From a virus: a stretch of DNA of 61,089 nucleotides. Location of the stretch: IMG/VR virus record IMGVR_UViG_3300025108_000045, positions 1-61,089 of that record; one strand, 5' to 3'. This document shows positions 1 through 61,089 of the stretch, one piece after another (positions within the stretch are counted from its first letter, which is position 1; the number at the start of each line of letters is the position of its first letter). The translations under genes and the position numbers were made by a program. Below the pieces are notes generated by a model. That model had not been told where the DNA came from. It made no database searches and saw nothing but the letters and a program-made list of their open reading frames with translations.

Positions 1-322
1 CCCGCTGGACCTGCTGGACCCGCTGGCCCTGTTGCTCCTGCTGGCCCTGTTGCTCCTGCTGGACCTGTTGCTCCTGCTGGACCTGTCGCTCCTGCCGCGC
101 CATCGCTTCCGTCTGCTCCGTCTGCACCTGCCGCTCCTGCTGGCCCTGCTGGTCCTGCCGCGCCGGTAGCACCATCAGCACCATCAGCGCCATCAGCGCC
201 ATCAGCGCCTGCCGCGCCAGTAGCACCCGCTGGTCCTGCCGGTCCTGTCGCACCTGCCGGTCCTGCTGGACCTGCCGCGCCAGTAGCACCCGCTGGTCCT
301 GCCGGTCCTGTCGCACCTCCGG
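1..322 (-). repeat. Collagen-like Gly-X-Y triplet repeat within the fibre gene
   Basis: Read on the minus strand, the stretch encodes consecutive GXY triplets ([19 protein letters not shown] and similar). At DNA level it is made of nearly identical 9- and 18-base units, so copy number can change by slippage. The repeat continues past the left edge of the window. Confidence 0.9.
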
Positions 323-1583
323 GGTAGTTGCATCGAACCCACACGCTTCCTTCGTAAATCAGTGTAGCGCGTTCTGTTGTAGCGACGGTTGCGTTCAATC
401 CTGCGGGTGATGTTTGATTATCAAAGACAATAGAACCCGTACCGTGGTTGCATATTTCAATGATGTGACCTTCGGGAAACTTGTAGTTCGCACTCCCGTC
501 TCTTTCGGGGTTGAGTGTAATAGTCACACCGCTATTCGGTGAGAGCATGAAGAATGAATCACCGTCAGCCGTCACTACCCATGTACCGTTTGTTGTTAGC
601 GCGGTGCTGGTTGCATCGACACCCATGCCTTGTAAGCGCACAGCGTAGTGTCCCGTCTGTTCGTTGTTGCGACCTGCGAAGTAAAATGAGTCAGCCGCGT
701 GTCCTCCACCACGGTCTAAACCGCGCGATGGTCCTTGACCGTATCCAGCGTCGCTTGAGGATGGTGGCGATTGAGCGAACGCACCATAGCGAGGATGGCT
801 CACCCAATGCACATTCACAGTGTCAGTGACAGCAAGTTCTCCGTTTTCGTTGTGGACTGCGTTAAGATGCGCAATGGTGTTGATACCTTCTGCACCACCG
901 TCAACAATTTCACCGCTTGTGATTGTTCCAACAGAAAGAGGGACGCGGTAATCTGCCGAGCCTTCGATGAAGATGCGCTTGTCGTTGATTTCTGTGATGT
1001 TGAGATTGTTGCTACCGCCGCCGCTGGCTACATATTCCACACGGATGTGAGCAAGCACGACAGTCTTCATGTTATCTTGAGTAGCACCTGTGTTGTAATC
1101 AATGAGATACTGGTTAGACGCGGATGGATAAAGACCCGTGGTTGAATCGACTGGACTACCACCTTCGTAGTACACTTTGTTGTTGCCTCCGCTCGGTGCA
1201 ATATACACTGTGTAAACCGCTTCCTCATTGGCAGAGAGTGACAGCGCACCGCTACCGTGTGAACCGTTGTTGAGGTCAAGTGTGACGGTATTACCCACAC
1301 CCGAACCAAACTCATAGAGCGCACCATCAAGGACGACGAAGCCTCCGCTTACGGTGAGTGTGCTTGACGATGCACGCACTATGGAACCGGGCTGGTTACC
1401 GCTATTTGTTTCGTTGCGCGTGGAGCCGTAGGCTCCGTCTTGGTATCGCAGAATCCCGTTGCCCTGTGCGCCTTGAATCAAATTGGTCAAAGTCGTGGGT
1501 GACAATGAGTCACCATCTCTCAAGCCGTCTTCACCGAGCGTGTTCTGCGCGGCTGTGTGTCCTGCTATGTTATCTGTCGCCAT
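1..1583 (-). CDS. Tail fibre with collagen-like repeats (3' end outside window)
   Basis: The gene starts at an ATG at 1581-1583 behind a strong ribosome site (GGAGGT, six bases upstream). It overlaps the stop of the preceding gene as TAATG. It reads open to the window edge, so at least 527 residues are present and the C terminus is missing. The N-terminal third is a beta-rich, Gly/Ser/Asn-rich adsorption-type region beginning [16 protein letters not shown]. The last hundred residues visible are uninterrupted Gly-X-Y triplets ([12 protein letters not shown]). Such collagen-like stalks are common in tail fibres, where they form trimeric rods that present a receptor-binding tip. It is the last gene of the tail module after tape measure and hub, as expected for a fibre. 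The tip, which would say most about the receptor, is not in the window. Confidence 0.85.
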
Positions 1584-1930
1584 TATGATACCTCCAATAT
1601 GAATGAGAAGCGCACTTCGTTCTGCGCATTTTTAGTGAATGAGTTAATGTCTGCGCGGTACACAGGAATGAACTCGCCTGTGGTAGCGTCTTTGTATTGA
1701 ATGTAAACTTCTTGAATCGGCTTGCTGAACACATACGAAGAGTTGAATGAGCCTTCAACGAGCAGGCTGGTGTCGTCAATGATTTGCACGCGCGGCACTA
1801 CTCTTGCAAGTGTTCGCGCACCACCATCGTCGGAGGTTGCGACCGTTCCGTCGCTTCCAATGTGCAACTCGTTGACAAGCGTAGCGAGGTGTTCAACCAA
1901 GCGTCTCTTTACGGCGTTGAGCATTGGCAT
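1583..1930 (-). CDS. Small tail-tip/fibre-associated protein (115 aa)
   Basis: The start at 1930 has GGAGGAA six bases upstream and overlaps the previous stop as TAATG. The product begins [19 protein letters not shown], with an amphipathic N-terminal helix. It is followed by a beta-rich body containing [21 protein letters not shown] recognise no catalytic motif. It lies between the tagged 197-aa protein and the collagen-like fibre, and its stop overlaps the fibre start. A role as fibre connector or fibre-base protein is inferred only from position. Confidence 0.7.
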
Positions 1931-2523
1931 TATTGTTCCTCCAATAAATTACCATCTTCGTCAAAGAACTGACTCATGTATTTCCTATGGTCTAAATCGG
2001 GGTTCTCGCCATGAAAGTTCAAAACAGGTACTTCTGTATCACCATGTCCCATTTGCCTCAATGCTTCCATGCGATGTCCTCCTTCCTGATGCCCTATCGC
2101 GGGCATTCCCAAAACTTGCCCGTCTTTGATACCGTCTATGATGCTTTGAATATGCGCGGTTCCTAAATCCGGCCAACGATATTCTTTGCCGTCAATCGTT
2201 CTTGGGTTTGTGTCATACCCGTTTTCTGCTAAACGGTCAAAGTATTGATTGGGTGTCATATTTTTCACACGCGCTACATTACGACTTTTATCCCAATCTC
2301 TTTCTCCTGTTTCGGGGTTAGTGCCATACGCTTCTGTGCCTAAAGAGTGACCTATCATTCCTTTTGGGTGATTGTTATACGCGTCTATTACTTGTTGGTC
2401 TGCGCCGTATTCGGGAAAGCCGAATGCGTGTTCATTATGCTGATAAGCCATTTGAACACCGGGAACATTTGTATCAACAACAGGCATTTTAAGAAACAAC
2501 CAAGCCCTCTGCATCGGGTTCAT
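1930..2523 (-). CDS. MNP-tag protein with a possible ParB-like fold (197 aa)
   Basis: The ATG at 2523 is preferred over the in-frame TTG just before it, because GGAGGA lies seven bases upstream and the ATG overlaps the previous stop as TGATG. The N terminus reads MNPMQRAWLFLKMP, the tag shared with three other proteins here. Near the C terminus, IGHQEGGHRMEALRQMG followed by a short strand (TEVPVL) resembles the GxHRxxAxxxxG signature of ParB/sulfiredoxin-like domains. That fold occurs in partition proteins, nucleases and small kinases. The resemblance is a short motif only. The position among tail-tip genes suggests a virion or assembly role rather than DNA partitioning. Confidence 0.75.
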   Translation of the reverse strand: MNPMQRAWLFLKMPVVDTNVPGVQMAYQHNEHAFGFPEYGADQQVIDAYNNHPKGMIGHSLGTEAYGTNPETGERDWDKSRNVARVKNMTPNQYFDRLAENGYDTNPRTIDGKEYRWPDLGTAHIQSIIDGIKDGQVLGMPAIGHQEGGHRMEALRQMGHGDTEVPVLNFHGENPDLDHRKYMSQFFDEDGNLLEEQ

Positions 2524-4193
2524 CAAATCTTCCTCCTAATCTTTTTGCCCTTGACCGTTCTCATCTCATGCGCGCGAGGTCGGAGCATACGAATCTCCCC
2601 GATAGGTGAGGGTATTGCGGCCCCGCTTACCAAAGTTGCGCCTGTGAAGGTGGTGGCTGTTCTCCCACTGTACGAGACAAATGACTGATTGTCGAGGATG
2701 AGGTGGCCGCTATCAGCAAAACCGTCTGTGCTGGTGACAGTGATTGTTCCGCCACTGTGCGTGCCGTTGATGCGCGGTGTAATTCCAAAGCCAAGTGCAG
2801 ACCTTCCACCCCCGTATCCAACGCTACGGTGCGCCAATAAGACACCTCCGTGAATGTCGGGGGAAGTATTGATGCCGCTTGTTCTTGTTCGCGCCAGTGT
2901 TGTGATAACAGGTCTTACGCTTAGCGCCCCTTTGACCCTCAGTTGCGAACCGCCGACACCGCTCTTGTTGATTTTGACAATTTGAAAAGTTCTGTCAACT
3001 TCATCATCTTCTGCCTCAACATCGCCGCTGTCGCCGAATCCTGTCAATACAGATTCAAGCCCCGCTTCATAAGAAATCATTTGAAAGTCCGATTCTCCTG
3101 TCGAAGAATGGTTCACCTCAATCAAGGCTTGCCGCACACTACCGACCGGAGAGTCGTATTCAACAATGTCACCGGGTTCTAAATCCCAAGAGAGTGTGTG
3201 TCTTTTTGATACGAGGCCACCCTGCGCTTTTCTGTTCAAACGGAGTGCTTGGTTTGCTGACTTGCGCGCCGCAGTTTCATTGTTAGCGGTTGGGTCAAAG
3301 GTTGTCATTTGTTTAATTGAGCCGTGCTTCTTTTGCAACTCAGCATCATCGACTTGCACGCTAATTACATCATTGACTGCAATACCCTTGCCTCTTACAA
3401 TCACTCTGTTTGCAACATCAACTACGGGGTCGATGCTCGTCTCGCCTACACCGCGCTGAATTCCCAAGGTTCTGTCTTTGACTTGGAATACTTTAGGAGC
3501 ATAAAGGAAGTTCCCAAACCTATCGTAGTAAATAACGAAATGGTCATGTCGAGCGACAGAACGGATGGCGCTTGGAAGAACAAGTGAATTGAAGTTCTTA
3601 GCCACAAAGAGTGCGCTTGTCCCTTTCGTTGCAACACTGTTCAACCCGTGTAACGCTTTAGTGAATAATTTCTCAACCAAATCTGTACTGCGCAGTCCTA
3701 CGCTAACTGCTTGACCAGCATGCACATGGCGCGTTCTCCCCATTTGCAATTCTGCCAAACTGCGCCCCTTCATATTGTTGAGAGCAATTCGCGCTCCCTT
3801 GTCGGAGACGCTGATGTTATCAGTTCTCAACCGTAATGATGTGTCCGTGGAATCGTACAGTAGCATCGGTCGCTTGGATGTAGGAGAAAGGCGCTCGCCG
3901 TCAAAGAAAGGGGCGTCTTCGTGAGTGGTGTGTGCTAAACGCACGCCTGCGGATTCTTCGCTGAAACGGTATCGGCGAGGGTGACTGCTTTGGAAGTCCG
4001 CTTGGTTAGGTTTGTCCACTTGAGAAGTCAAGCCATTGTTCTGCGCGGGCTTGTAAATGACATGGTGAACTGCATTGTCAACAAATGTAGGTTCCTCCGC
4101 CACTGAACCTACATGTTCGTGAATAGCATCCGACCGTCCATTGCTTGGAGCGGCGTAAGATGTGTTGCTCGGAGAAGGCACTGTGTAGGTCAT
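2523..4193 (-). CDS. Tail hub / baseplate protein (gp27/Tal-like, 556 aa)
   Basis: Starts at 4193 with GGAGGCG five bases upstream and overlaps the giant gene's stop as ATGA. The central part (about residues 210-370) follows the pattern of tail-hub proteins of the gp27/late-control-D type. A strand set containing YYDRFGNFLYAP is followed by a stretch with DVISVQVDDAELQKKHG. Then comes a helix rich in Ala and Asn (ARKSANQALRLNRKAQGG) and a strand around LEPGDIVEYDSPVG. The C-terminal 100 residues are Gly/Thr-rich (GGTITVTSTDGFADSG) and look like a fibre-attachment domain. Position downstream of tape measure and Dit-like genes agrees with a hub closing the tail tube. The family call is pattern-based and should be tested by structure prediction. 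Confidence 0.65.
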   Translation of the reverse strand: MTYTVPSPSNTSYAAPSNGRSDAIHEHVGSVAEEPTFVDNAVHHVIYKPAQNNGLTSQVDKPNQADFQSSHPRRYRFSEESAGVRLAHTTHEDAPFFDGERLSPTSKRPMLLYDSTDTSLRLRTDNISVSDKGARIALNNMKGRSLAELQMGRTRHVHAGQAVSVGLRSTDLVEKLFTKALHGLNSVATKGTSALFVAKNFNSLVLPSAIRSVARHDHFVIYYDRFGNFLYAPKVFQVKDRTLGIQRGVGETSIDPVVDVANRVIVRGKGIAVNDVISVQVDDAELQKKHGSIKQMTTFDPTANNETAARKSANQALRLNRKAQGGLVSKRHTLSWDLEPGDIVEYDSPVGSVRQALIEVNHSSTGESDFQMISYEAGLESVLTGFGDSGDVEAEDDEVDRTFQIVKINKSGVGGSQLRVKGALSVRPVITTLARTRTSGINTSPDIHGGVLLAHRSVGYGGGRSALGFGITPRINGTHSGGTITVTSTDGFADSGHLILDNQSFVSYSGRTATTFTGATLVSGAAIPSPIGEIRMLRPRAHEMRTVKGKKIRRKI

Positions 4194-7100
4194 AGCGTCG
4201 CCTCCTTGTCGGTTCTGTCACTTTCGTTAGCATGGTCGCCTGTATTCAAATCATCACCCGCATACAACTGTTGAGTGTAGCGCGGCTGAACATTGTAATC
4301 AAGTCGAATGAAAGAATCTTGTTCATCTTGCACAGACTGCCTTCGGCTTGCGTCGCCTCGGAAGTGTTGCAAAGTATTACTTGATACAATCATTCGCGCA
4401 ACAGACTGTGTTGCTGTCGATTTGAAGTCACTTGCGCCGCTACCTGCAATCTTAGGCCCTGTACTTACAGGTGCGCTGGTTGATGCTGATAGATTGAATA
4501 AATACACAGGCGCGTATGGAGGGTTGTTTGGAGCAGGGTTGCTACCACGCATGTAGGTCGAAGCCGCATCAGCGGCGCGTGCGTTAGGGGCATCATAAAG
4601 GAACACACCGTAACGACCTGCGGCAGTTGCCGACAATACATGCGTTCTCTTATCACGGAACAATTCAATGTGTTTGTTATCAAGCACGCGTACAGGACGA
4701 ACGAGGAACTTGATAGTCTCATCTTTAGCGTTTGTTTTGTAAGATTTTGAATCATGGTTGCTGGTTTGATATGGGTTGGTGCTCGCACCGCTCGCTGAAC
4801 CCCAAAGATAATCGTCAATTGGTTCTCCTTCGGAACTCAATTCTAAGATGAATGTTCCGCCCATAACTGGAACTCCGTGCGTTGTCCCAAATCTCAAAAC
4901 CTGCTTGGTTGAAGCAAAGTCAAGTGTATGTAAATTGAGATTATCAAGCGCGCGGTTGGCTGTACTAACGCCGCCTGTTAGAATAAAGCGCTGACCAACC
5001 TGTCTGTCTGTGTGTAAACTGTGCGCTTCTGTGCTTGCAATTGCATAAGCCGGACCCATCTCACCATCATTCTCACCAACTGTCATCGTATCCAAACCAA
5101 TACGCGGTTTTGATTTTGCAATTGGTTCTTGCATGAAAGTGAAGTTTGAATGCTCAACATTGTTTCCTATGTTGGCTTCTCGCTTCAACAAACCATCCGA
5201 ACCCGCCAATTCCAAGCGAGCGCTGATTCCTCTCGGCATTTCATGAGATTCTAAATCCACATTTGAAGGACGAATCAAGCCGTTTGTGAACGGTGGTTCG
5301 CTGGTATGGTGCGAAAGAACCAACCCAAACGGTTGCATATCTTCGGATACATCTTGAAGAATGTCTTCATTGAAGTATGTCGGGTAACGAACACCGCGCC
5401 CGTCACCGCGGTCACCAACTCTCTTGGCTGTGGCAGGGTCAAAGAATCGCTCCGAGGCTACTGATGCGCGTAATGCTGTATCGCTGAACATAGTCTCAGC
5501 GGACTTGGTTCGGTCAGTAGCGCGGTATGCATCTTCCGGGTCCCATGACGGGCGAATACCAAACCCGCGCACAGGGAACCTGCGAACATCTTCGCCTGTG
5601 GTATTACCCCACCAGTCAATCATGTAGTGTGCTTGAGCAAGCGCGAGATTAACTCGTTGGTCAACAACATCTGTTCCTGCTTTCAAACCCGCAGGTGTGT
5701 CGGAGTGGAAGCGGCGGATGGCAGTGGATGGGTTGCGAATGTTTCGTACCGCACATCCGAATCCTTTGGTCATGCGCCGTCCATCACTGTACTGAACCTG
5801 TTGACCTTTGAGGTTTGTTCCAACAAGCGCGGATGCGTTAGTTTGTCGTTCGATGACGCCAACATAAGACGGTTTGACATTTGTTGTTGGTGTCGTCGTA
5901 TTGGAAGCGCTTTGAGTCGTTGTTGTCATTGTTGCACCGTCGTTGCTAACGAACGGCCCTTCTGCTTGGTAGTGATAATTAGTGTAGGGGTCGCGCAGTG
6001 CTTGATTTGCTTTGATAGCCCAACGAGGACGATTGTATGGTTGCCTTACTGATACGCGGTAGCCCCATCCAGCGTTGCGGTTAGTCGATGCTGAGTTGAT
6101 TGAGTCGGTCATGGTTTCAACATTAGCGTCAGTCACGACGAGTCCTTTAGCGTCAGTCACTTGCTTGATGTTCGGGTCGTCCCATTTGTTACGCCATCCA
6201 ACCATTGCTGTACCGTAAAGACTCAACGAACTCATTTGCGCACCAAACCTATGACCGCCCGACCAAAATGCTCCAAGTTGATACTTGCGCGATTTACCGT
6301 CTGTACCTGCTTGATGTGGATAATTAGCATCGGGGTACGCGTCTGTTAAATCGTCGCCGGGGCCTTCCCATGTTTTCATTCGGAACTTGAAAGGACCATC
6401 ACTCATGGCGTATGTGAACTCATGGTAGTGAACCGTTTCAAAATGCTCCGGTGCATGGTTGTAGGCTTTCTTGTCAACAGCCGCGTCTTCTTTGTTAGTA
6501 CGGCTGTCGGAGAACCATGTCATTGGGCGACCAAGATTGTAGTGCCACATACAAAGATACGCGTCGGGGAGATGCATTGAGTTGGTATCGCGCGTCCCCG
6601 ACAACAGTTGCGGCAGGTTGCGTGTAGCAATACTCTTGGTTGAATCGTTGTAATACGCGCTGGCATTGAAGTTATTGTAGGGTGAAGTTAAGCGAACGGT
6701 CGCGCCTTGAACAGCCGCGGCCCAAAAGCCACTTGTCACAGGAGCCACTCCGTTGAAAACAACTGGACCTGTTGCCCCTGTTTGACTGATGTAGCCGCGG
6801 TCAGTGTAAGTCGCTGTTTGTTCAACGCCGTCTGCGTCAACGATAAGCAAGTGGTGGTTGTAATAGTCGCTACCGACTAACGGGAAGAGCGTGTTGTTCT
6901 GCACATACAACTTACCTGTACCGCTAATTGAATGTTCGATTGTCGCAACAGGTGTGAGTGAAGTGAGGTATTCAGTGTAAACATCAAGGTAGTGCGACGG
7001 GTAGCCGAGCATCGTGGTCTGTGTCCCCACTGCTCCGAGGGTTGAGCGACAGAAGTGATAGTAGTCGTCGGGTTGATACTGCTCTATTCGCTTCCATTTG

Positions 7101-10100
7101 TTTGTCGCAAATATCGTTGAAGAGTCAAGCGCGGCGCTCCACCATGGCACAGTCACTGTATTTCCGGGTGTGGCACGGTGGAACATGTTGGGATGGTATG
7201 GTAGGCTACGGCGGGTGAACGCTCCCGATGATGTAGCATTGACACCGAATGGGTTTGCAAGACCAAGAATAGGAGTGTTCGCGAACTGTTCGCGAGTGGA
7301 AGCATCATGGTCAAGAATCAGTTCATTGACAAATATCTCACATCCGCGCGTATCAGCCATAGTAGCCTCGGAAAGAATGAGGTCAAACTGCACACCATTC
7401 CATTGAAGCGCAACAACCGTAGCCACCAGTTGGTCAGTCAATGAGCGCTTGGTTGAGTTTGCTCCACTTGGGTCTTCGGGTGCATCGGTGTTAGCATACT
7501 CAGTGTTCTCATTGTTCCCCATAAACTGCTTGCTGAACAGGTTAGGTTGAATGACAATTTGATACGCGCCTACCTCAGCAGGGTCGGGGAAGTTCCATGA
7601 TGTATTGTAATTGCTTCCGCTTTCGAGTTGTATTCGATGTCCACCCGCTTTGTTGCAAACAGCGCTGTCGTCAGCCATTCCATAACCATCGAAGCGCAAC
7701 TTAGTTTCTGTCAACAATGTGAAGCCGTCACCATGAATATCGCTTGGTGGCTGAGGTGATGTTGGACCCGAAAACCAAAGCAGAGGATTGTGAACAGCCT
7801 TGCTTGAATCAGCATCAGTTGCTCCAAAACAAGCGCGAGCGTTTGCATTTAATTTTTGATACAGTGGGTGAGCAAGATGACCGGGGAGCATAGCCATAGT
7901 GGGGGCAACATAATGATGACCCATGCGGGGTAGCGGCATTGGAGTGAGTTTGTTAGCCGCGCGAACAAGAGTTGCAGGGCTTACTCCTGCCGGAAGATTA
8001 GCCCAATCAGTGTGGGGCTTGTCGGGACTGTTCCCACTTACTTCTGCATGGTCACGCAGTCTGCGAGCGGCAAACTGTCGCGTCGAGCCAGCAGGGATAT
8101 AGAAAGATGGTTTGATGCCATCGTCCTCCTTGGCCGTAAAGTCGGGCGCGAAGACAACCTGTTGGAATTGTTTACCACTTACTTCTTTGAACGAAGCGAT
8201 TGTGCCGTTGACTGAAAGGAAGTAGCGTCCGTCGGGTGTAGGGTCTTGCTTCCAAATGTCAGCGGTGATGGTTTCTTTTGCGGTAATTGTATCTGTTCCA
8301 ACCACATCAACCGTGAGACGGTTGAGTGTCATAGCGTTGTTGATGATGCTCAACGGTTCGCGTTCAGTGTAGGTGTACCCCATCTTGGTGATGTGGAAAT
8401 ACAACGCGCGGTCGTGAGGTTCGTAGGCTGTTTCGAGGATGTTCTGTGATTGAAGACTGTTGTTACTGTCGGGGAAGTTGTTAGGGTTTTGATTGATGTG
8501 TTCGTACCCTTCTTGCTCCCAACGAGGCGCGGTGTTAGGTCGAGCAGACTCCGACTCAAATGAACTCAATACTTCTGCGGTGGGTTGACTTGGGTGTTGC
8601 AACCCTCCGCTACCAAGTGTTTCGTTTTGATAAGCCTGCAACCTATCGAAACCAGCGCGTACAAGGATATTCCCCGGTATCTCATCGTGGTTTGGTAAGC
8701 GTATTTTCATGTTTGGCGATACACCGGAGCCTGCCAAAGCAGGAGCAAGACCTTCATTTTCGCGGTCATGCACCAGTTCATAGTCGCGTATCACTACACC
8801 AAGAGGTGAGCCGCCCTCAAGCGTATGCTCTTGGCCTGTATCATCGACAACGACAGTGCTGACAAACTGCATCTCTTCGTTGGGTATGCTAAGAGCGTTA
8901 CGCACTTCGTAAGGGTATTGTTCAGCGAGTGAAGGGTGAGCCAGTTCTTGTGCTTGGATAATAGGAAACATGCCAGCGTTAGTTGTTTCAAACGAGAAGC
9001 GAACATTGCCGTAAATTGTTTCACCGAACTTAACATAAGAGTCACCAACCTTGTGGACAGCCCATGGTATGCTACCAAGACCGCGTGCATTTTGAGCAGG
9101 TAGCGTAAGGTTGCCGCCACTCATTCGCTTCCATACGACATGCTCAACAAAGAAGTTGCGAGCCGCGCTACGGTCTTTCCAGTGTGAGTAAATATCATCG
9201 CGATGAGTTTCGTAAACCTCGTACCCTTTCATCTCAACCTTGGCTGTTTCCGAATCGAAAAGAGGGTCGTTGGGGTAATACTTATTGTTTGGGTTCTCTT
9301 CTTTGTCAAAGAACAAGTCGCCTGTTGGGAACAAACAAGTCTCGGCCTGTGTGAGTTCGGAAGATGTTGCAGGACTGCTTGTCCAAAGAGGGGATGCGTC
9401 AGTCGGGCGTGTAATTGTTGTATCATACATGGCTTCGATATGAGGCCCTGCATTCGACTCTGCGCTGAATCGGTCGTTGTTGAATCGGTCATTGTGGTAG
9501 GACGCAACCGTGCCTCCTTGAGTTCCACCCCATTTGAGTTGAAGCATGTCGCCACAGGCTTTCTGTCCGTTGCGCGAAGCCTTAGCGATAATTGGTAAGT
9601 CACCCTCATAGGAGACTACGATGAAATGGCGCTGATGCAATCCAGTCGAGTCGTGAAGATTGTTTTTTGGAACCCAAATATACTGAGCGTTCTCTTCCTC
9701 ACCTGCACCAGTTGCTGGTCGCAAAATCCATTCCATGGATGCAGGTTGATGACATGCCATGCCGGAGCCGTATGGGTTGAATCCAAGCATAGGATGCCAT
9801 GCTCCTAACCCTGCCGCTACCTTATCACTGATGTTGAGACTGTTGAAGTATGAATAGCGCTCGCCATGCCAACCGACTGCGCCAACTGCGCGCGTGCGGT
9901 CAATAGCGTCAGTCACGCCACTGAAATGAACTTGTGTGGATGCGTAATGGTCGAAAGGTCCGTTAGACATTTGACCGGAACTTGTTGCCCCTGTTGCGCG
10001 AGTTCCGTCAACTGCGTTTTGGAATCCATTATCCCATCGCAAATTACCTGCCTTTGACCAAACGAAAACTTTGTGACCTGCTCCTTCAACACTGGACACA

Positions 10101-13100
10101 TCACCTGTTCCGCTAAGCGCAGGCTCTTCCAATCGGTTTTGTCCGTTTCGGAAGTTCGCACCAAGAACAAATGTTCCTTGAGCAACATCGTAGTGCGAGT
10201 AGTAGCCGTAGTAAGACTTTGTACCATTGCTGACGCGTATCCAACCGTTCTCCGGTAGCGTCATCGGGAGCGCCGTTGATACTGAAACAAGACCGCCGCT
10301 GGCGGCGTCAGTGTAAGTTCCGAGGTTACCAACATCAATCCATCCGTATTTGTCTTGGCGTTGCGCGTCTTGGAACGATGGTAAGAAAGAGCCGCCGAGT
10401 GCTTTGAGATTAGCGCGACCGGGGAATGTGTTAATTGCGGCGGCGACGACTGCTCCTAACTCTTCACTGTTTTGACAGCGCGTAGCATCAATCAAGAATA
10501 CATCTTCGGGTACTGGCGCGCTTAAATTATCATCGTAATCAATCAATACTTGCGAGCCAACTCGGAACATCGTTGCATTCAGTCCAAGTCTGTCGATGTA
10601 TTGCACTGTGGAATTTACAGAATTGACCAGTGTCGCAGTGATAGGATGCGGAGCATTCTTCCGCACGCTGTTGTCAAACCAAGAACCGCCTGCCGTGTAT
10701 CCACCATCAAGGTGGAAAGCAAGTTTGTTTATGCTAAAGTTACTGATAGCAGAAGCAAATCTTGCAGTCGCTCGATAGTGAGAGAATGGATGAGCGTATT
10801 CGTTTGCAGCGCTTTGACCAGTGGCGTTCGGTCCAAAGAAGTGACTGCTAACATAGCGCGCTTGTGTTGACAAAGTTTGGTTGAATGCACTGTTTGGTGA
10901 ACCATAAGATGGTTCCCAATGACGGAATGTTTCGTAAGGGAATACATTGTTCGCGCCGTAAGCATCTGTCGGCGGTAAAAACTGATTTGAAGCGCCGTTA
11001 AGCGTACCATTGCTCAACTCATTTGGTAGGAAATAACCAGCCTCGTTGCCTTGGTCGAATGTTGTTCCTGTGGCTCCGTCAAGTGAGCAGTATTTTTTCC
11101 ATGCGGCTATCCATTTTGCCGAAGGTTCGACCGACTGTGTTATACTTCCTATCTCCCCGCTCCAATGTTTAGGTACTGATTGGCCGGGGCCGAACACCAT
11201 GTAAGCCACACTGTTTTCGGAATCATCATAGCGTGCATAAGGGTGAGCAAATCGAAGCACGACGGGTACAGGTTGAGCGACTTTGACACTATCGTAGGTT
11301 GTGCCGGGGATAGGGTGAGTGTCTCTGTTCCCGTCAATGTCGGGATTGAGTATAGCATCAGCGTTGGCAAATGGAGGCGAAGCCTCACCCCTGTGTTGAT
11401 TAACAAGCGCCGAAGCAGGGAACATTGCAAACATAGCCGCAGTGTCAAGGAGCGCAAAGGCTCCCATCTTCTCACCAATGTCTTGCAATCCAGCGCTACC
11501 CGTAGGACCCTTCGCATACGGGTGTTTGTTGTGACTGCTGTAATCAACACGCGACCCGTCGTTGATGTCCATGACTACGCCGCTAAAGCCACCGCCGAAG
11601 TAAAGAGGCACATTATGGTCAACGCTGTCATGCGCTCCACGGAAATACAATAGCGGGTTGCCTTTACGATTCGCGCTAAGACGCATCCCTTGAATGTCGT
11701 TGACGAACTTGAAGCGTTGCATCAGTTGACCTGTGCTACCTAACAAAGTTCGGAAATCACCCTTGCCTTCGTTATTATGCCAGCCAATCATTTGATTAGC
11801 CGCTACTATGGCTTCCCCGCCACCTCTCTCTATGGGGCTAAACGCCGCGCAATAGATGTAGGAGTCTTCTGTCAAGTCCATACGCTTGAACGGTGACCAA
11901 GACCCATCAATCGCGCCGCCAAACTCATTGTGAACATCGCGATTAAGATTGTTACCACTGGCATCCACATGTTGCAACTGCCATGCGTATTGGCGACCAA
12001 GTACAGCAAAGTTGTGAGGGTCGCGTAACTCAAGTTGATAGGTGTCTTTTTCACCCGAAGGTAGGCTTCCCGACTGAGTGTCAAGTTGGAAAGTATGAGA
12101 CTCAAGAGCCGGTGTAATGTGGTCACCATCAAAGCGTGTAAATTTGTCACCTTGCAAGTGCTTCTTCCATTCAGCGGTAGGCACTGCATTGTTGGTTTGG
12201 TCAACAAGGATGGGTGTGGCTGTGTTAGCGTTGTAGCCTCGGTAGCGTGTTGATATTGTCAATAGCGTGCTTGGTAAATACCCACAGTCTAACATTTGTG
12301 AATTGAGTTGACTTGCTCCCAACCCGCCAAAAGTACCACCAGTACCGTGCGTTGCGCTGACTACGCTTGTTTCTTTACTACTTGCGTTGATGCCCCAATC
12401 TTTGGAGAGGGAAACGCTGAATAGAGAGCGAAGAGGTATGATTTGTTTGTTGCGATTAAAGGTTGTAATTTTAATTGCGGTGCGCGCGCTATCGCCCATA
12501 ACCTCGCCGTAAGTACGACCATCGGGTGCGCGCAAATGTGAACAGTCAAAGAACTGATTGTCCTCGTTCGGGTCAACTGTGAAAGCATAAGCGGTCGCCG
12601 CGGCAATCAATTCATCAGTAACAATAGTTGTTTGATTGAGATGTGGGCTGATAATGACAGGCGCGTTGTTATCGTCGTAGGCTGTTGGTCCTCGGTTTAC
12701 TTGAGCGCTGAAATACTGAGCGTGTATGTCATCCGCATCAACCCCGGCAAGACCTGCAAAACTGTGAGGGCCAGCCCGACCGTTATGGGTTCGCGAAGAA
12801 TAAGAAAAGACTACACCAACTTCACCATACGCTGAGGTTGAAGAAGGGATAGCCAACCAAATTAAGCCGCTGTCGGGAAAACCCATCCAACCGAGAACAT
12901 CGTCAACATCGGGAGAATGATGCCATATTCCGCTATTGTAGTACCCGTAACCGCTCGCGGCGTTAATTTCAAGAGTATTGTTGCTCATTAAATTTTTCAT
13001 TGTTACAGCGTAACCAGCGTTAGGCGTGTGAACACCGCGCCATTTGTTACCTCTCCACTCTTTCTCGCTTCCTGCTGAGTAAAAGAAAGGTGTGCCATCG

Positions 13101-16100
13101 GAACCTTTACCCCACATGTGAGAGCCAATAGTGAATCCACCCGACGCAACATCGCGGTCATCAAAGTTGATGAGCGTTTCTTCATCAATAGTGCTTGGCA
13201 TCATTGAGTTTTTGTTAGAGAATGATTCACCCGCGCGTCTGTAAATGTATCGAAGTATGTGTGACTTGCCGCGATGGTCAACCATTTTCATACCATAGAG
13301 AGGTTGTGTGCCTGTCACATCTTTTCCTGTTTCAGCAGAAGGTGCGTAAGTGTTGTAAAACTTGTAGTATGTGTCTGCGGGTGCAAGATTTTGACCATAG
13401 ATGGTGACAAATCGACCATCCCCCTTTCCGTCTTCACCAAAGCCCCATAGACCAGCATCGGGAGCAAAACCGGGAACGCCTGCGGCTACGATACCACCGA
13501 AGTTAATGCGTGCTTTAGCGCGTGTGCCTATCTGCAAACCTTCTCGTATTGTGAATTTTTGACCACCGTTTTCAAATGACTCCATAGCGCCACTGTTTGA
13601 CGAACGACCAGTAGTAGCCCCCGTGTTTGGAGTTTCAAATCCTTCTGCGGTGTTGAAATTAGCGTCGTATCCGAGGTGCAAATTTGTGATGAAATCATCA
13701 CCAGCCTCGTCCAATGCGACATATTCGCGAAGAGTGGTGATTGGGGCGAACGGTTTGCCGTTCTTATCAATCGGCATAGGCGCAGGGTGCATGTTTTCAC
13801 CTGCTATTTCGGGAGGTGAACAGAAGAAGTTGCGGAAACGACCACCGTGACCGATAAGGAATTGTGGTTTGTATTCAGCCTGTGACTTACTGTTGTCCAA
13901 CCAAGCGCAAAAGTTGCGCCCTGTTGCTCCGGGGACAGTGCTGTGTATCACTATGCTGTACCCTTCATTGCCGTTAGCATCTTCAACAACACGACCAATA
14001 TGCGCGCGAAGATAACCCATGTGAGAACCGCGGTCAAAAGAAGTGAAAGCACTGCTCATCCAAAACGGAGCAGGGTCGTGTGTCGAACCTGTCACTGCAA
14101 AATCAGCGTGCTGATGAATTGCAGTAGCGTCGGTTGGCTCTTGAGTTTCAGTTCCGGCTACTGACACTGCTCGCCTGTTAATATCGAATCGCTCACCTTC
14201 ACCAGCGTATTGGTCGGAGGGTCGTCGCTGACTGCTTCTGCCATTTAACGCACCGCCTTGATTGATGAGACGAACAACTTCGCGTGCCGCGGCCTCTATG
14301 TCTGTGACACCTTCTCGCAATCCAACCTCACCCATGTCAATGCTCAAACGGCGAACGAAGTCCATTTCGGTCCAGTGGGGAAGTTCCTTCAAGCGCGCAT
14401 CGCTCACAATGTTAGCAATGCTTCTCTTGCCCTTCAAACAAAGGAATGCTGAAATGACGCGCGTGCCTTCCGGTGAATCGAAGAAAGTCGCGCTAAACTC
14501 ATAATGACCTGCGGTGTCATCGACAATTGCTTCGGATGTATCGTGGTCTATCGTTTCAGCATGTCGCTGTTGAGCGCTGGTAATGCTTACTGTTGACTCG
14601 GAGACGCGCCCTTGACCAAACTGAGCAGATTCGCTACCGAAGGATATGGTGTGGTCTGTGCCGCGTGTCTTTCTTACAAAGTGAGTGGACGCTACACCGG
14701 ATGTTGCCATGTAAGCGTTGTCCATCAGCCACCACATTTTGTGAACATAGGCTCCTTCGACATATTGAGATTTGCCTTCATCTTTAATGAGATTGTAAGC
14801 GACGCTGTTGATTGTTTGAGCGTCTGTGCTTGATGTTGTTGCCTTATCCTTTCGTTGTGTCTTGAACCCTGCCGCCACATCAAGACCTTCAATGGCTGGT
14901 GTAGCGGCGCTTGTTTGAACTTGCATGTGTAAATCGTGGAATGCGATGAACTCACGGTCATGTTCAACATCATAAAGAAGAACGCGCGCATTTGTTTCAG
15001 TTGTTAGGTAAGGGTCGAGGTATGCTACAACAGGAGCAGAAGTGCTGTGTCCAAGTTCGGACCAATTGAGTTCGATGGTTTTGTTCACATGTTGAACAAA
15101 GTTACGAGCAGTCTCAATGCAAGTGTCGCCAATAAGGAAGTTTTCAAGAGGAAGAGTATCGCGCGCTTCAACTCCCAATGCACCTTTGCCGCCATTGAAT
15201 CCGCTCCACACTTCGTACTCATTTAACACTCCGCGCGATTTACAAAACATTCCTTCAATCGCGTGAGGATTTGTATAATGCATGTTCATCCACACACTGT
15301 CACCGTAACGCAATCCACCCGCACAGTATGGATTGTTCCAAGTAGCGTTCGCGATTGCATCCTCTTGCTTGAGAGGTAAAGTCGTTCCATTGATTGCATA
15401 AACACCGATGACAGTGATAACATCATCAGCCGCAAGATTAGGCGCACCGCTGTCGAGGACAGGGTGTGCAACGGTTGTCAACTCATTGACAGCGCTGGTT
15501 GAGTTGTAAATGATTTGATATTTACGCCCTGTGGCTTCGTTGATTCCCGCGAATGCGTAATTCGTCGGCAAATGCCCCTTGGGTAAATCTCCCTCAAAAT
15601 AGAAGGTTTGTCCTATTTTCAGTGCAATCAACTTCAACTTCGCGCCTTTTGATTTTATGCGACCAAGATGCGGGTTAGCGAGCGGACCGGCTTTGAACTC
15701 GACTGCGCTAACATACTGACGCAAACCATAGTCAAGATTGCCGCCTTGGGTCATTACGCTCCCGCGGTCGTAGTAAAATGGTCGTCGGTATTCTTGGGCG
15801 GAAGAAGCGTAGTTATCGTCACCAGTCATTGGGAAATTGTTTCCGTCAGCAACGGCTCCAACAGTGATTTGGGAACCGACTTCTAAACTTGAGAAGAAAT
15901 CTTCACTTGCGTGACCTTCTGTGTGGCTGAGAGTGAGAGTACCTGTGCCACTCCCTTCGTAGTAGGCCCACTCACCGTTGCCCAAAACAACTCTGCGAGT
16001 TCGACCAACGCTTGCCCCGCGAACTAATCCAGCGGCATTGAAATTCGATTCGGGTATGTGAGTAAAGCCGCTCATGATTTGCAATGCGGTTGAACTTCCT

Positions 16101-19100
16101 CGCCTTTCGTATCTGCGAACAGTAGCGCGAATAGGCAACTTGTTGGTGATGCGATACTGATACTGACCGAAAGCCTCGTAATCATTGGCAGGGTATGACC
16201 CTGCTCGACGGCCAACAGGTGAAGGGTTCCATGTATGCGCAGTCATAGTCGCATCAAGATGCAATTTCATGCTGTTATCGGGACCGGGGAATATGCCTGC
16301 ATCTCTGTCTTCAAAAAATTGTTGAGGGAATAATGGAATTTCAACAAGCGCGCGAGTGCTTGCGTATTGTGTTCCAAGTTGATAGTCATGTTGAACAGAG
16401 CCGATGGATTGAAAGAGACGGTCGTTGACTGTTGTTCCATCAGCGCAAATAGATGATGAGTTGAAGAGAGGGTCGAGAGATATGATGCTCCCAATCCCCA
16501 CTCCGCTCTTAGTGACCCAATCACTAAAACTCGATGCACCTCTTCCGTTAGGCAGTGTGCCACCGTCAGTCAACTGAAAGGTAATTCCTGTTCGGCTTGT
16601 GTATTCAGCGCTTGCCCCGTTCTCTAAATAAATGCGACCAGCGGCAGGGAAGCCGTATGTCCCCCACGCTTGCATATTCGCTGATAAATTATTGAGAGGG
16701 TTTACATCAATTTGAAAACTTCCTGTGTGAATGCCATTGACTTGTGTGCTCATATCATGACGAGTGTTCCAACCAATACGAGATAGTGTGGCAGGGTCCC
16801 ATGAGGGTTTTGTATTGACTGCGCCTTGACCTGCTCCACCAAGGGTTACTGAAACAACAGGCGCGCCGGGTTGTATTTCTTTGACAATGTGTGAGTTAGG
16901 ACTACCATCGCCGCTGTAAGACACTGTTTGGTCCGACACATCATCCATCAAGCCTTTTGCTTGCATGATGAGACTGCGACCGCCGGATGTATCTTTTACT
17001 TGCATTGAAGATAAACGACAGACTGATTGTATGAACTCAACTATGATGCGAGTAGGGTCGTTTGAATCAAGAGCGCTTGGAGTAACTCTTGACAATTGCA
17101 TAGTGCGCTCGCGCTTGCTTGGTTGAACAATGAGTATGTTGTTGCTACCAATTTTGTCATTGTCGATAATGTCAAACATTTCAAACGCGCCACCCTTCTG
17201 TGACGCGAATTGTTTAGCCTCTTGATAGCGAGCAGGGGCTTTACCAACAGGAGGGTCGCTTGCTCCGCGCTTCCTTGGTTGCAAATGCAACTTGTGGTAC
17301 GCAGAAGGGTGTCGCGTTGCCCCGACCCCTTGAGGTGGTTTGGAGGGTTCGTCTCCTGTGTTGCGCGGAGAATAATTTGAAGGGATGAGTGATTCATCCA
17401 AGTCCTCTTCAAATTCTATTCCACCTGTGTTATCTCCAACTAAGTAATGAGGTAAGAGCGCTATGTTACCATCCCCCACATCTTTGGGGTTGAGGAAGAT
17501 AACGCCGCCTGCGGAATGAATTGTTGCACCAGCGCTTACTGCATCCGCAATGTGAGCGGCTACGCGTTTACCATTCAGCAAACATCCTGCGTCGGGTACT
17601 GTTTTTGTAACAAGCAAAGAAGGGTTACTAAGCCCCATCTTTCCGCCTGTAAGGTCGATTGCATCATAGTGAATTTCAACATACCCTGCTGTCAATCCCG
17701 ACACCTCAAGGATTGCTATTCGCGCTTCTGTTTCGGGCGTGAGGTGATTTTTGTATGAAACATCGTCGGTTGAAGAAACATCAATGCCTCCACCTTTGAG
17801 TAGGAAGGGGCGAACATCATCCACTGAGATAGCGATGACACCATCGCGATGAGCGTCAATTGCCGCCAAGCCATTCCTTACTATTCCATTTGTATTAGCA
17901 CTGATAATAATTTGAGAAATGCGAGAATTGATAGCAGTGTGGCTAATTTCAATCTTGCTGTTGATTGGTAGTTGTTCTTTCAAACCAAGATAACTACCCG
18001 CGAAGGTAACTATCACATCGTCTGCTATACCATCAATGGTTCGCGTCACATCTTGAGTGTGTGTCGGAGGTAGCATTCTCAAGTAAGAGTGTCCTTCTCG
18101 CTGAGTGAACTTGTGTCGTCCCGTGTGTCCTGCTTTGAAACGCTCATCCAGCGACCATGAGGCTGGTGAGAAATTGTTTCCTGTGGCAATGTTGCGCGAA
18201 AACATAAAGCCGTGAAAACCATTACCGCTTTCGTCAATGACCATCGCGCCTGTTCGGTCAATGGCTTGACTACCTGTGCCTATGGTTTGGTATGGTTTGC
18301 CCGATATGCCGTCGATGAGCAGGTCGGAACGGACAAGCACCATGGTTGAGTCGTTTGCAAAGTTGTTAGAAGAATCAAATGCAGTTCGCGGATGAAGAAC
18401 ACCGCGAGAGCCAGTGTCGGGTGACAAGCCAAAATCGAGATGAATGCTGTCAATTGTTACAGTACCGTTGATATTGATTTGCTTAAGACGAACTCTCTCC
18501 GGCGGAGATGCGTTAGGAATGCCTGTGAGGGTGTCTGTACCTGTCGGGTTGATGATGAGGTTGAAAGGAGTGTGAGCGACGCTGATGACCTGCGCTCCGC
18601 TACTGTGAGCGGCGTTTGCTACTCGATAGTTACCAAGACTCTCAAGCGTGTAGTTTGCCAATAACGCATCGGACTTGCCGCTCACTGTTTCGTAAAGCGT
18701 TTGACAGGCTGTTGCTCCTATGGTGATGGTAGTGTCGCCTGCTGACACGGCTGATGTGATAGCGAACTCATCATCATCCACTTCAACAGGCTCTTCAAAG
18801 CGCCATAGACCGATAGTGTTCGTTGAACGAAGACATGGTTGTGCGCGCGTAGCAATTTCACTAACACCACGCTTCCAATGCACTGATTCAATGTAACCTC
18901 GGTATTCACCACCTTCACCGCCAATGAACAAATCTTGGTCGTTAAAGTTGCATGTGTGTTTCTTGTTGGTTCGCTCGGAAGCCATCAATTCACCATTGAC
19001 ATAGAGTTTGATTTGACGACCGTTGAATTCGCCCATGATGTGATAAAGTTCGCGCTGACCGATGTTGTACCCTACATTGTTTGAAACAAATGAACCTGCC

Positions 19101-19471: not shown

Positions 19472-19472
19472 G

Positions 19473-20645
19473 TCAAGTCCCCACAATGAAATCAATTGGT
19501 TGGAAGGTAATGTCGCCTTCGTAAATGTTCTCACCAGCGTTATAATTCATCGACATGGAAACGACTGTGCCGGATATGCCAGTCCTGTCATCAGTAGGGT
19601 CAAAAAGAGTTGATACGCTGAGATTGTTTGCTTCCGAATCTTCTTCATCAGCCCTGCTCAATCCGTTGACGATTCTAAAATTACGCTCCACATAATCACC
19701 GTCGCTTGAAGATGAAGTGATGATTGAGTTGTAAGGCAGTTGCATACCGATGATGTAGTCATTACTCTGCCCCGCGACTAAACTGAAATCTTTGTCAACA
19801 ACAAGCGCTCCTGCTTTCAGCAGACTACCGGAAGTTCCGGCAAGATTTGCATTGCCTACATACGCAATGAGGTCCTGTAATTTATCGCCCGCGCTCTTGC
19901 ATGACATGTCTTTGCCACCTCCGAATGTTTCAAAGAAAGGGGTGTTCCCTGCGAAAGTTGTGCTAAACGAAGGTGTTTCATTGTTACTCGCGAACCCTTT
20001 TTCTTTTGCTGTGAATGTAATTTTACAGTTGGTTGCCAAGTTTTTACCCACACCTAAAGTAATAGTGAAAGCATCGGTGAAGTTCGTACCACCATCTGTC
20101 GTTAATTGGTCAGTCGTTGAGGGAGTGAGAGTGTTATCTTCAAGTGCAGTCTTGATAGCCCCCGCTAACGACGCACCTGTGGTGATACCTTGTATGCCGA
20201 CAGTGATTGTTTGAGGATTGTTTGACCTTGTGTTAGAAGAAGAGCCGCTATCGAATACAACGCGAACAGGCTTACGGGTAGTGTTTTGCCCTGTGTAAGC
20301 CGTTTCAATTTCAAAATACAAACCGTCCAAATCAGCGTTAGTGACACCCCCCGTATCACCGCTCATCATAATCGGATGCGAACCACCGCTATTATCTTTC
20401 AGCGCGCTGAAATCAATGGAAGCCACTGCCGCAGTTTTTTGAAATGTGGAAGCGGCGCAGTTATCATCGGACAGAACGATAGTAAGTCGATAATCAGCGC
20501 TCACCATGTTCATGTCAGCCGCGTAGCGCGTACCTATCACTGGAACACTGAGAACTGGAACACTGCGCGTGATGTTCATACTGTAATTAGTCACATCAAG
20601 CACGATGACCTCACCGTCGTTACGAATCAAACGAACCTTCGTCAT
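19473..20645 (-). CDS. Distal tail (Dit-like) protein, 390 aa
   Basis: Starts at 20645 behind GGAGGT and overlaps the tape-measure stop as ATGA. It begins MTKVRLIRNDGEVIVLDV, a beta strand with basic residues typical of baseplate-proximal tail proteins. It continues as an all-beta protein with a Ser/Thr/Gly-rich insertion at about residues 120-250. It is the first gene after the tape measure, the usual place of the Dit protein that caps the tube and anchors baseplate proteins in siphoviruses. No sequence signature alone proves this, so the function rests on synteny and length. Confidence 0.6.
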   Translation of the reverse strand: MTKVRLIRNDGEVIVLDVTNYSMNITRSVPVLSVPVIGTRYAADMNMVSADYRLTIVLSDDNCAASTFQKTAAVASIDFSALKDNSGGSHPIMMSGDTGGVTNADLDGLYFEIETAYTGQNTTRKPVRVVFDSGSSSNTRSNNPQTITVGIQGITTGASLAGAIKTALEDNTLTPSTTDQLTTDGGTNFTDAFTITLGVGKNLATNCKITFTAKEKGFASNNETPSFSTTFAGNTPFFETFGGGKDMSCKSAGDKLQDLIAYVGNANLAGTSGSLLKAGALVVDKDFSLVAGQSNDYIIGMQLPYNSIITSSSSDGDYVERNFRIVNGLSRADEEDSEANNLSVSTLFDPTDDRTGISGTVVSMSMNYNAGENIYEGDITFQPIDFIVGT

Positions 20646-43452: not shown

Positions 43453-44853
43453 TCAATCCAACAGCCCCATCATTATATCATCCAAGTCCACGATTCGTTC
43501 GCGGAACTCTGTGGTAGCCCAATGAGCCAAAGCAAGAGCGATGGCGAAGTCATCGTGTCGTCCGATGCTGTCGAGTCGTCCTTTCTTACTCATACCGAAC
43601 ATCAGCAATTCTTTCTCAAGTTCAGCCATCAGCGAGCGAGAACGGTCGTCACCCCACGGCAGTCGCATCTGTTCGTTCTCGAATCGCAATACCAAACCCA
43701 TGAGAAGCGACTCACGGCGTTGGCGCGTGGAAATGAATGTTTTGATAGGAAGGTCTGTGTCTGCGCGCAACTCAGTTGCGAAGACCCGCTGGAAGTTGTT
43801 CGCCTCTAATTCAATCACATCGGGATTGAACTTCGCGTTAATTCTTTGAATTTCCATAATCTGTGTTCGGAAATCCATGTTCTTACGGCGCACTGCATGA
43901 ACCAATTCAAGCAGTTCGGGGTTGGTTGATGGGCGACGAAGAACTACCATTACAGTAAAGTCAGCGGCCCTATCGGAAGAGATAGCAGGGTCCCAACCGA
44001 CAAAGTATTGGTCGTCGGGGTCACCGACTTCGCGGTCAATAATTTTGAGTGTAGTGTCTTTGGCGAGTTGAAGAACGGTCGAAGGGAACAGACTGCTCAC
44101 ATCGTCCATAGGTTCGCAAAGATATTCTCGCGCAAACGCAATCGCAGGCATGTCAGCCCTGCGCGCATCCAATGCTTCTAAGTCCCATCGTTCGGGCCAA
44201 AGGGCTATTCCTTTTGCGTTGATTGCCGGATATGTTTCAACAAGATACCCGTCGCGACTCTCAAGTTCAGTGTAAAGGTCAGTCGGAGTAAACGGTGTGC
44301 CGACAATCATCAGTTTGGATGTGTGGTGAAGTGTAGGTACAAGAACTTCGTAAAACCAAGAAGCCACTCTCATTAGTTCAGTATCTGTTGTACCCCACAG
44401 AATGTCGTCACAGAGGATGAGGTCGGGGTGGATACCACGGATAGCGCCTCCGACAGACTTCGCGCTGATGTTTGAGCCATTGCTAAAACCGAAGAAAGTC
44501 TTTGACCAACTGTCAGCCTTCTTCATCTTAGCGAGAAAGGGTATGCCATCAATAAGGTCATTGAGTGTGCGCATGTGGTGGATGGACTGATGAAGACTGT
44601 GTGAAATCAAGACAGCCTTCGTCTTAGGGTTGAATGCTGTTTTCCAAAGCATGTAGCCGAGGAACAGTGTTGATTTGCCGTGGTCACGCGCCGCTTTGAC
44701 GCAATAGCGCTTGTGTGATTCAAGATTGTTGAACCATTGATTGTGATGCGTTGAAAGTTGAAACCCAAGAATCTCTTCAAAGAAAAACTTGAAGTCACGC
44801 TTCGCGACTTCAAAGTCGATTTCTTCTATTGCTTCAAGGGATAACGATTCCAC
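43453..44853 (-). CDS. terL: Terminase large subunit (466 aa)
   Basis: This is the DNA-packaging motor ATPase and headful nuclease. Walker A is at residues about 54-62 (AARDHGKST, the terminase variant of the P-loop). Walker B is LILCDD at about 145-150. A coupling motif follows at VGTPFTP. The C-terminal RNase H-like nuclease shows Asp288 in YFVGWDPAISSD, a glutamate near 348-350 in DVIELEANN, and the paired aspartates 434-435 in HDDFAIALALA. Length is typical. It starts with GTG at 44853 after AGGTGA, six bases from the previous stop. The motor docks on the portal encoded downstream. Confidence 0.95.
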   Translation of the reverse strand: MESLSLEAIEEIDFEVAKRDFKFFFEEILGFQLSTHHNQWFNNLESHKRYCVKAARDHGKSTLFLGYMLWKTAFNPKTKAVLISHSLHQSIHHMRTLNDLIDGIPFLAKMKKADSWSKTFFGFSNGSNISAKSVGGAIRGIHPDLILCDDILWGTTDTELMRVASWFYEVLVPTLHHTSKLMIVGTPFTPTDLYTELESRDGYLVETYPAINAKGIALWPERWDLEALDARRADMPAIAFAREYLCEPMDDVSSLFPSTVLQLAKDTTLKIIDREVGDPDDQYFVGWDPAISSDRAADFTVMVVLRRPSTNPELLELVHAVRRKNMDFRTQIMEIQRINAKFNPDVIELEANNFQRVFATELRADTDLPIKTFISTRQRRESLLMGLVLRFENEQMRLPWGDDRSRSLMAELEKELLMFGMSKKGRLDSIGRHDDFAIALALAHWATTEFRERIVDLDDIMMGLLD

Positions 44854-60880: not shown

Positions 60881-60890
60881 CCGCATGCGG
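60881..60890. repeat. 10-bp palindrome CCGCATGCGG
   Basis: A perfect self-complementary decamer five bases from the 19-nt inverted repeat. Together they form a compact pair of palindromes typical of protein-binding or origin-like sites. Confidence 0.7.
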
Positions 60891-60894
60891 TTAA

Positions 60895-60913
60895 GCAGGG
60901 CAAATTGCCCTGC
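60895..60913. repeat. 19-nt perfect inverted repeat
   Basis: The arms GCAGGGCAA and TTGCCCTGC flank a single central A. The sequence can form a stable stem or bind a dimeric protein. It lies about 130 bases upstream of the 2304-aa gene start. Confidence 0.85.
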
Positions 60914-61089
60914 GCGAGACGCGAGTCCGGCTAACGCGAGGGGGTATTTGCCCGCGAAGCGCGAGGGCCACGCAGTGACGCGCGCAGGTTGCATCAGCGC
61001 TAAGGCATTGCATCGCGATAAGCAACCACGCGATGCTCGCGCGGGTTGTCGTCCCGCGAAGCCCGATTCATCATCGCGCTCCTCCAACC

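Follow-up and report, generated by a model that had tools for sequence, protein, structure and literature searches.

Loss of GATC, AGCT and many further restriction-type words in a marine tailed virus and among its uncultured relatives

Introduction

Site removal is a strategy that has already been published, at a scale similar to the one described here, for archaeal viruses of salt lakes. The HF1 group (Hafunaviridae: HF1, HF2, Serpecor1, Hardycor2 and HRTV-5/7/8) comprises tailed archaeal viruses, and the available part of its description (PMC7230728) reports CTAG and GATC as absent from all seven isolates, AGCT as absent from HRTV-7 and 21 six-base palindromes as absent group-wide, which its authors also read as restriction evasion. 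Here, we examine a stretch of viral DNA, IMG/VR record IMGVR_UViG_3300025108_000045 (positions 1 to 61,089, the whole of which is hereafter called the window), that contains no GATC, AGCT, CTAG or ACGT and lacks further words, and we follow these losses through its relatives.

The resemblance to the HF1 group is not an identity. The HF1 viruses belong to another order and infect another host, AGCT and ACGT are near normal in Serpecor1, and most members carry an N6 methylase according to the same part of the source, which likewise holds no description of single words switching between close relatives over many contigs. Hardycor1, another halovirus, lacks AGCT, CTAG and TGCA along with 22 more six-base palindromes and strongly avoids CAGC, CATC and CCAG, as stated in the accessible portion of PMC7911831; it thus offers a precedent for the avoidance of asymmetric words, but the window has a normal TGCA content and no GATC. 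The Druskaviridae HVTV-1 and HCTV-1 have the capsid proteins closest to that of the window in the phage collection (33–35% identity). Over the 50 kb compared in each case (the second half of the genome), no GATC occurs (0 of 213 and 0 of 240 expected copies), whereas AGCT and ACGT are near normal.

The Magrovirales (Apasviridae and Aoguangviridae), compared here through their published description, share with the longest relative of the window (G001; 102,931 nt) a family B DNA polymerase (PolB), an RFC-like ATPase and a group II chaperonin, as well as oppositely transcribed replication and structural modules within 102.9 kb (PMC12999244, PMC10768690). Neither of these two papers mentions a purge of restriction sites, and the words restriction, methyltransferase, palindrome and tetranucleotide are absent from the main text of PMC10160649. 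Our literature search, which had most subscription papers outside its reach, found no published account of site avoidance in magroviruses.

Absence of four tetranucleotides

An exact count over the 61,089 nt gives zero copies each of GATC, AGCT, CTAG and ACGT, as the original prediction had it, against 226, 205, 76 and 119 expected from a trinucleotide model and 235 for each word from base composition. The proposed count of all 256 tetranucleotides against a model sets these four words apart: the next rarest is TATA with 22 copies, and no other word falls below this. The positions cited for four retained palindromes are also correct (GTAC at 1658, CATG at 546, TGCA at 329 and TCGA at 333), with earlier copies of GTAC at 439 and of TGCA at 123.

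Codon usage is ruled out as the cause. In 200 synonymous-codon shuffles of 39 open reading frames (ORFs; 60,213 nt, some ORFs overlapping) the mean counts were 210 for GATC, 223 for AGCT, 80 for CTAG and 166 for ACGT, with minima of 175, 187, 61 and 136, respectively, so that the shuffles never held fewer than 61 copies of any of the four words. Base composition is likewise ruled out by zero copies against both the composition and the trinucleotide expectations. The four words are thus missing outright, well beyond what chance would give, and strong selection, as had been proposed, remains the best explanation, since the counts are zero and codon shuffling does not reproduce the depletion.

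The sums over all words one mismatch away are 3399 (3040 expected) for GATC, 3043 (2802) for AGCT, 2175 (2310) for CTAG and 2894 (2849) for ACGT. Some one-step neighbours do exceed expectation (GATT, 296 versus 234; TTAG, 174 versus 136), as a mutational or compositional bias acting without selection might leave them, for example through the deamination of methylated cytosine. The deamination products, however, are not enriched (AGTT, 239 versus 280 expected; ATGT, 326 versus 343), relatives that overlap in base composition have CTAG, ACGT, GTAC or TCGA at near-normal counts, and such a bias accords neither with an exact absence nor with its disappearance on codon shuffling. We consider this explanation to be extremely improbable.

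Longer and asymmetric words

The purge is wider than first noticed: it covers dozens of motifs of four to six bases, some of them asymmetric. CCAGA, CCAGG, TCAGA and GTAGA are absent from both strands of the window, and GCAGC, CCTGA and CCCAG occur once each. That asymmetric pentamers are missing from both strands points to double-stranded DNA, and not mRNA, as the target. Among the 48 palindromic hexamers that contain none of the four words, 27 have no copy, some of them with an expectation below 5, and the six-base palindromes with at least five copies have AATT, CATG, CGCG, GCGC or TGCA at their centre. CCWGG, CYCGRG, GGYRCC, GKGCMC, CTRYAG and GTMKAC are also at zero. When a restriction specificity is called testable if at least 8 sites are expected in the full window, 59 of 545 have no site and 69 of 545 lie below 10% of expectation.

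We then compared equal lengths of 50 kb, namely the first 50 kb of the sequence sets of the window and its group (the relatives as pieces), of Serpecor1 and of a cyanophage, and the halves of HVTV-1 and HCTV-1 named above. Specificities without a site number 43 of 431 in the window, compared with 17 of 426 scrambled words made of the same letters, and all 17 of the latter contain a purged four- or five-base word. Once motifs with GATC, AGCT, CTAG, ACGT, GTAC or TCGA are excluded, the numbers become 23 specificities against seven scrambled words. The five long relatives behave in the same way (64/422, 70/403, 59/420, 53/410 and 48/398), with zero fractions of 12–17% for restriction specificities and 3.4–6.1% for scrambled words. 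Serpecor1 reaches a similar level (60 of 430 testable specificities), whereas the Druskaviridae have far fewer (HVTV-1, 15/431; HCTV-1, 20/427); cyanophage S-SSM6b has 11/354.

These target types bear on whether the core words GATC and AGCT might be hit by a non-orthodox host system, either modification-dependent (Type IV, Mrr) or phosphorothioate-based. Haloarchaea provide precedents at GATC, the available part of PMC7230728 discussing both the Mrr of Haloferax and a system based on phosphorothioate, and GATC is missing from the examined halves of the two Druskaviridae genomes too. On the other hand, the many purged targets that are six-base palindromes or degenerate fit orthodox Type II specificities, and modification-dependent enzymes left only weak avoidance in a survey of viral genomes (PMC6286503). 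A non-orthodox system at the core words is thus unlikely.

Spread among relatives

Relatives were collected by terminase, polymerase and capsid. The terminase and capsid sets are the best 80 loci each, for the capsid among the matches listed; the three sets overlap, some contigs occurring in more than one, and two loci (L154 and L155) look identical. Terminase-bearing relatives hold one GATC against 3577 expected and two AGCT against 2809. The 58 polymerase-bearing loci, whose PolB is 38–100% identical, hold neither word (3502 and 3064 expected), nor do the capsid-bearing loci (4046 and 3569 expected). With the overlap removed, 238 loci (including 20 pieces of five contigs) and about 2.42 Mb contain one GATC and two AGCT in total. 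The GATC and one of the two AGCT lie at most 12 nt from a contig end, where errors are more likely than real sites. CCWGG comes close to joining this core, with four copies against 902 expected in the terminase set; 107 against 1242 are found in the polymerase set, some divergent lineages of which partly keep it.

Control cyanophage loci from the same collection contain 3063 GATC (4117 expected) and 609 AGCT (2159 expected; reduced, not gone), and 68 loci, mostly of other phages, contain 2124 GATC (3302 expected) and 2849 AGCT (3329 expected). As a separate observation, the cyanophage loci (L104 and L328–L407) show a purge of their own: CCGG occurs 16 times against 606 expected and is missing from 20 of the 21 loci in which 10 or more copies are expected; TCGA is at zero in 12 of 70 loci. 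An artefact of library preparation or assembly, such as restriction digestion during sampling or cloning, would have to reach contigs of many different IMG metagenomes while sparing GATC in cyanophage loci of the same collection, and one contig without the words continues uninterrupted for 102.9 kb. We found nothing in its favour and regard its chance as negligible.

Related viruses with the same gaps, which the original prediction had suggested looking for, therefore exist in number. By the same token GATC and AGCT cannot act as the host fingerprint that it had envisaged, because their loss is common to practically all relatives from many metagenomes.

Switching of single words

Other words change state from one relative to the next. 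Counting only those terminase-set loci in which at least 10 copies are expected, the numbers of loci in the off, on and intermediate states are 40, 12 and 1 for CTAG, 48, 20 and 1 for ACGT, 41, 21 and 0 for CCTGA, and 32, 22 and 2 for GCWGC. These four motifs are thus nearly all-or-none between loci, which implies that lineages mostly lie near one equilibrium or the other. The pattern is less clean for GTAC (47, 11 and 15), TCGA (31, 38 and 11) and GAGAC (8, 27 and 29).

In a 58-row tree of the terminase (the window and 57 of the 80 terminase loci, hand-chosen mainly for length), the minimum number of state changes for 16 motifs ranges from three (CTAG and GDGCHC) up to nine (RGCGCY), omitting states with an expectation below 8 or at 10–40% of expectation. 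Changes are also seen between close relatives. When 12 motifs are compared between loci whose terminase genes differ by less than 10% and whose expectation is at least 12, there are 22 pair-and-motif cases of differing state, at terminase differences of 4–10%, involving RGCGCY, GTAGA, TCGA, CTCAG, GCWGC and RAATTY. For instance, L059 and L064, whose terminases differ by 6.2%, have 0 of 58 and 48 of 70 expected TCGA, respectively.

At many purged sites the encoded residues are unchanged. At ACGT sites in the aligned coding DNA of ten relatives, the window has the same amino acids at 140 of 243 positions (some of these relatives are near-identical, so that sites are counted more than once), and at CTAG sites of seven relatives at 77 of 127. 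CATG and TGCA, two words that the window has retained, serve as a reference: of their 269 and 321 aligned sites, 121 and 133, respectively, are conserved. Amino acids kept at many purged sites, together with the retention of CATG and TGCA, indicate that purging is largely synonymous and word-specific. Unlike GATC and AGCT, the switching motifs might serve as a host fingerprint.

A separate case is the 14-kb locus L029, whose CTAG, GTAC and TCGA sites are confined to its final 1.4 kb (12668–14098). This map suggests a recombination or assembly junction, and the idea that this locus had been caught in mid-purge was rejected on that account.

Methyltransferases and methylated words

Methyltransferase families were sought in sets of 25, 30 (replication-module) and four records. 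Two adenine/N4 methyltransferase families are found in none of the 30 replication-module records, and the C5 family in three of them, one match being partial. G040 and G044, which have a C5 methyltransferase, keep ACGT, and ACGT is at zero in G041, G042, G043 and G045, in none of which a C5 methyltransferase was found (G041 and G043 are partial records). Several records in which none was found also keep ACGT. Protection of ACGT by the C5 enzyme fitted this one clade but not G057, a 160-kb record with three such genes and no ACGT.

CGCG and GGTAG are methylated in MGIIA archaea and in Caudovirales, according to the available part of PMC9516812. Neither is purged in the terminase-bearing loci of sufficient expectation (0 of 78 for CGCG and 0 of 44 for GGTAG), and their retention is what would be expected if the virus were methylated at these words too.

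Unrelated records lacking the same core

Two long records, G056 (166 kb; L416–L423) and G057 (160 kb; L424–L431), were reached via the C5 methyltransferase of G040. Over 160 kb each, both lack GATC, AGCT, CTAG, CGCG and CCWGG entirely, with one and zero copies of GTAC, respectively. Few of their ORFs of at least 120 amino acids match any magrovirus locus (nine of 156 in G056 and 11 of 152 in G057 over the same length, including three methyltransferases in each), and no homologue of the capsid protein, terminase, portal or protease of the window or of the G001 polymerase was found in them (best E-value 1.2). PHROGs scans of 20 large proteins from the two records detected no capsid protein, so that they are counted as viruses on the strength of their IMG/VR label. 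In G056 there is a gene for the large subunit of DNA polymerase D, an archaeal enzyme. Each record also carries a ribonucleotide reductase and three adjacent C5 methyltransferases. They are possibly an undescribed group of archaeal viruses or elements.

The core words may alternatively be forbidden by the viruses themselves: viral nucleases cutting the DNA of hosts or rivals at GATC, AGCT and other words, not paired with methyltransferases, would make the purge a protection of the virus from its own enzymes. A conserved virus gene would indeed be expected to give a near-universal GATC and AGCT loss whatever the lineage, the scarcity of methyltransferases in the 30 replication-module records (adenine/N4 in none, C5 in three including the partial match) agrees with it, and a magrovirus family has been described as encoding restriction-enzyme-like nucleases (PMC12999244). 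However, the nucleases recognized in the replication module of G001 (ERCC4-type, PDDEXK_1/Cas4-like and a 3′–5′ exonuclease) are of repair or replication type. PADLOC run on ten G001 proteins revealed no Type II enzyme, a weak argument as such models often miss Type II nucleases; two helicases matched the helicase parts of the PbeA, Type IV, ZorD and DpdE models. Moreover, dozens of motifs would require dozens of enzymes, and the same core is absent from the unrelated 160-kb records. Should these share hosts with the relatives of the window, that absence would favour a host cause over a viral one. Self-immunity is therefore very unlikely.

Finally, a 37-kb fragment, G055 (L432–L433), lacks AGCT (0 of 137 expected) and CCWGG (0 of 56) and keeps GATC (181 of 210). 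It carries a diverged family B polymerase.

Virus group and gene content of the window

The window covers the structural half of a tailed virus, or about 60% if the whole genome were as long as that of the longest relative, and every ORF of more than 300 amino acids lies on its minus strand, as do all of the genes given here. A terminase large subunit (43453–44853; Terminase_6N and Terminase_6C), a portal protein (39035–40867; Phage_portal, 7.3e-9, below the gathering score, with a homologue in all five long relatives), a prohead protease (30687–32102; Peptidase_S78, 1.1e-9) and an HK97-fold major capsid protein (29530–30741, with an alternative start near 30687; SU10_MCP, 1.1e-7) make up the head and packaging genes. 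A putative tape-measure-like protein (20642–22354), which has no Pfam match, was assigned by visual inspection of its hydrophobic segments and its location. One quarter of the window is taken up by a giant ORF of 5114 amino acids (4190–19534) with homologues of similar size in relatives (5109 amino acids in G001 and 5657 in G002; over two sequence pieces in G003, and cut by the contig end in G004 and G005). A collagen-like protein, probably of tail-fibre type, is cut by the start of the window (3–1583; Pfam Collagen, 8e-13).

G001, which lacks six four-base palindromes entirely, encodes helicases besides the polymerase, ATPase and chaperonin on the strand opposite to its structural genes, and this gene set agrees with the published content of magroviruses (PMC12999244, PMC10768690). 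The features that define Magrovirales are thus found in two places: a head-tailed capsid protein, portal, terminase and protease with Druskaviridae affinity in the window, and an own replisome with chaperonin, opposite transcription and a length of about 90–110 kb in G001, a contig whose completeness is not established. The virus is most likely of the magrovirus kind, with Poseidoniales (Marine Group II) archaea as its host, the latter resting on the literature on this gene set. The marine archaeal setting of the original prediction is supported by way of the replication genes of G001 and the Druskaviridae-like capsid.

A magrovirus-like contig (L101; PAUP01000076.1) lies within a public genome labelled Cytophagaceae bacterium SAT149 and agrees with L044 in length and in the position of the match. 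Given the archaeal-type replication genes of its relatives, its placement in this metagenome-assembled genome is probably a binning error.

Discussion

We attribute the missing words to the removal of sites as a means of evading many host restriction systems, with a probability of about 0.82. This reading is favoured because codon usage and base composition are excluded, because real specificities are missing more often than scrambled words, and because the scale is that of the HF1 group. The original explanation, evasion of several host systems with four-base targets, is thus partly supported: selection and evasion remain the best reading, but the targets also include words of five and six bases and asymmetric ones, so that it was right in kind and understated in extent.

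The lineage would have met host populations with many restriction enzymes, mostly of orthodox Type II. All of their recognition sites would have been removed, largely via synonymous changes, and selection would eliminate any new ones. GATC and AGCT, and almost CCWGG, may be targets common to practically all hosts, and practically all members would accordingly go without them, while CTAG, ACGT, GTAC, TCGA, GCWGC, CCTGA, GTAGA and more would be lost and regained as the host range of a lineage changes; where the pressure ends, sites would return to near-normal numbers. A complete absence need not mean that a single site is lethal, since selection much stronger than the mutation rate would keep a word near zero.

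Several points weigh against this reading. The matching host enzymes, their link to the losses and the tie between switching and a change of host are what we infer, as is the host. Asymmetric motifs are purged too, whereas in the surveyed viral genomes avoidance was confined almost entirely to sites of the orthodox Type II class (PMC6286503). Intermediate states exist (GAGAC in 29 of 64 loci, GTAC in 15 of 73, YCAGA in 16 of 79 and TCGA in 11 of 80). A rule of encoding a methyltransferase or purging its word is not followed in every case, G057 lacking ACGT in spite of its three C5 methyltransferase genes and G055 keeping GATC though the two adenine/N4 families were not found in this 37-kb fragment. 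Finally, CGCG is at zero in nine of the 51 polymerase-bearing loci, which on the restriction reading would face CGCG restriction unprotected. These nine loci are L149–L155, L157 and L159 (PolB 38–43% identical; 0 of 13–40 expected copies); CGCG is normal in the clade of the window, and L148 (PolB 43% identical) keeps nine of 23.

What appears to be new with respect to the salt-lake viruses is the extent of the purge over a large uncultured group of marine viruses, its common GATC and AGCT core, and the switching of the other words; the absence of the same core from two unrelated 160-kb records is new. We may wonder whether GATC and AGCT, with CCWGG close behind, make up a vocabulary forbidden throughout one host group or by the viruses themselves, in its boldest form that of a conserved virus-borne nuclease without a methylase, against which the purge would be the sole protection. 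We hold this to be rather doubtful. If it were true, a defence would be near-universal in marine Poseidoniales, and magroviruses and unrelated 160-kb elements alike would have lost its words, G055 being the sole exception seen.

Poseidoniales are abundant and uncultured, and our literature search turned up little about how they defend themselves. That GATC and AGCT are missing throughout the virus group points to a putative cutter that is nearly universal. This virus group also provides a natural series in which the pace of restriction-site loss and regain could be measured, and, as several of the switching motifs are outright present or absent, virus contigs could record the restriction systems of their hosts.

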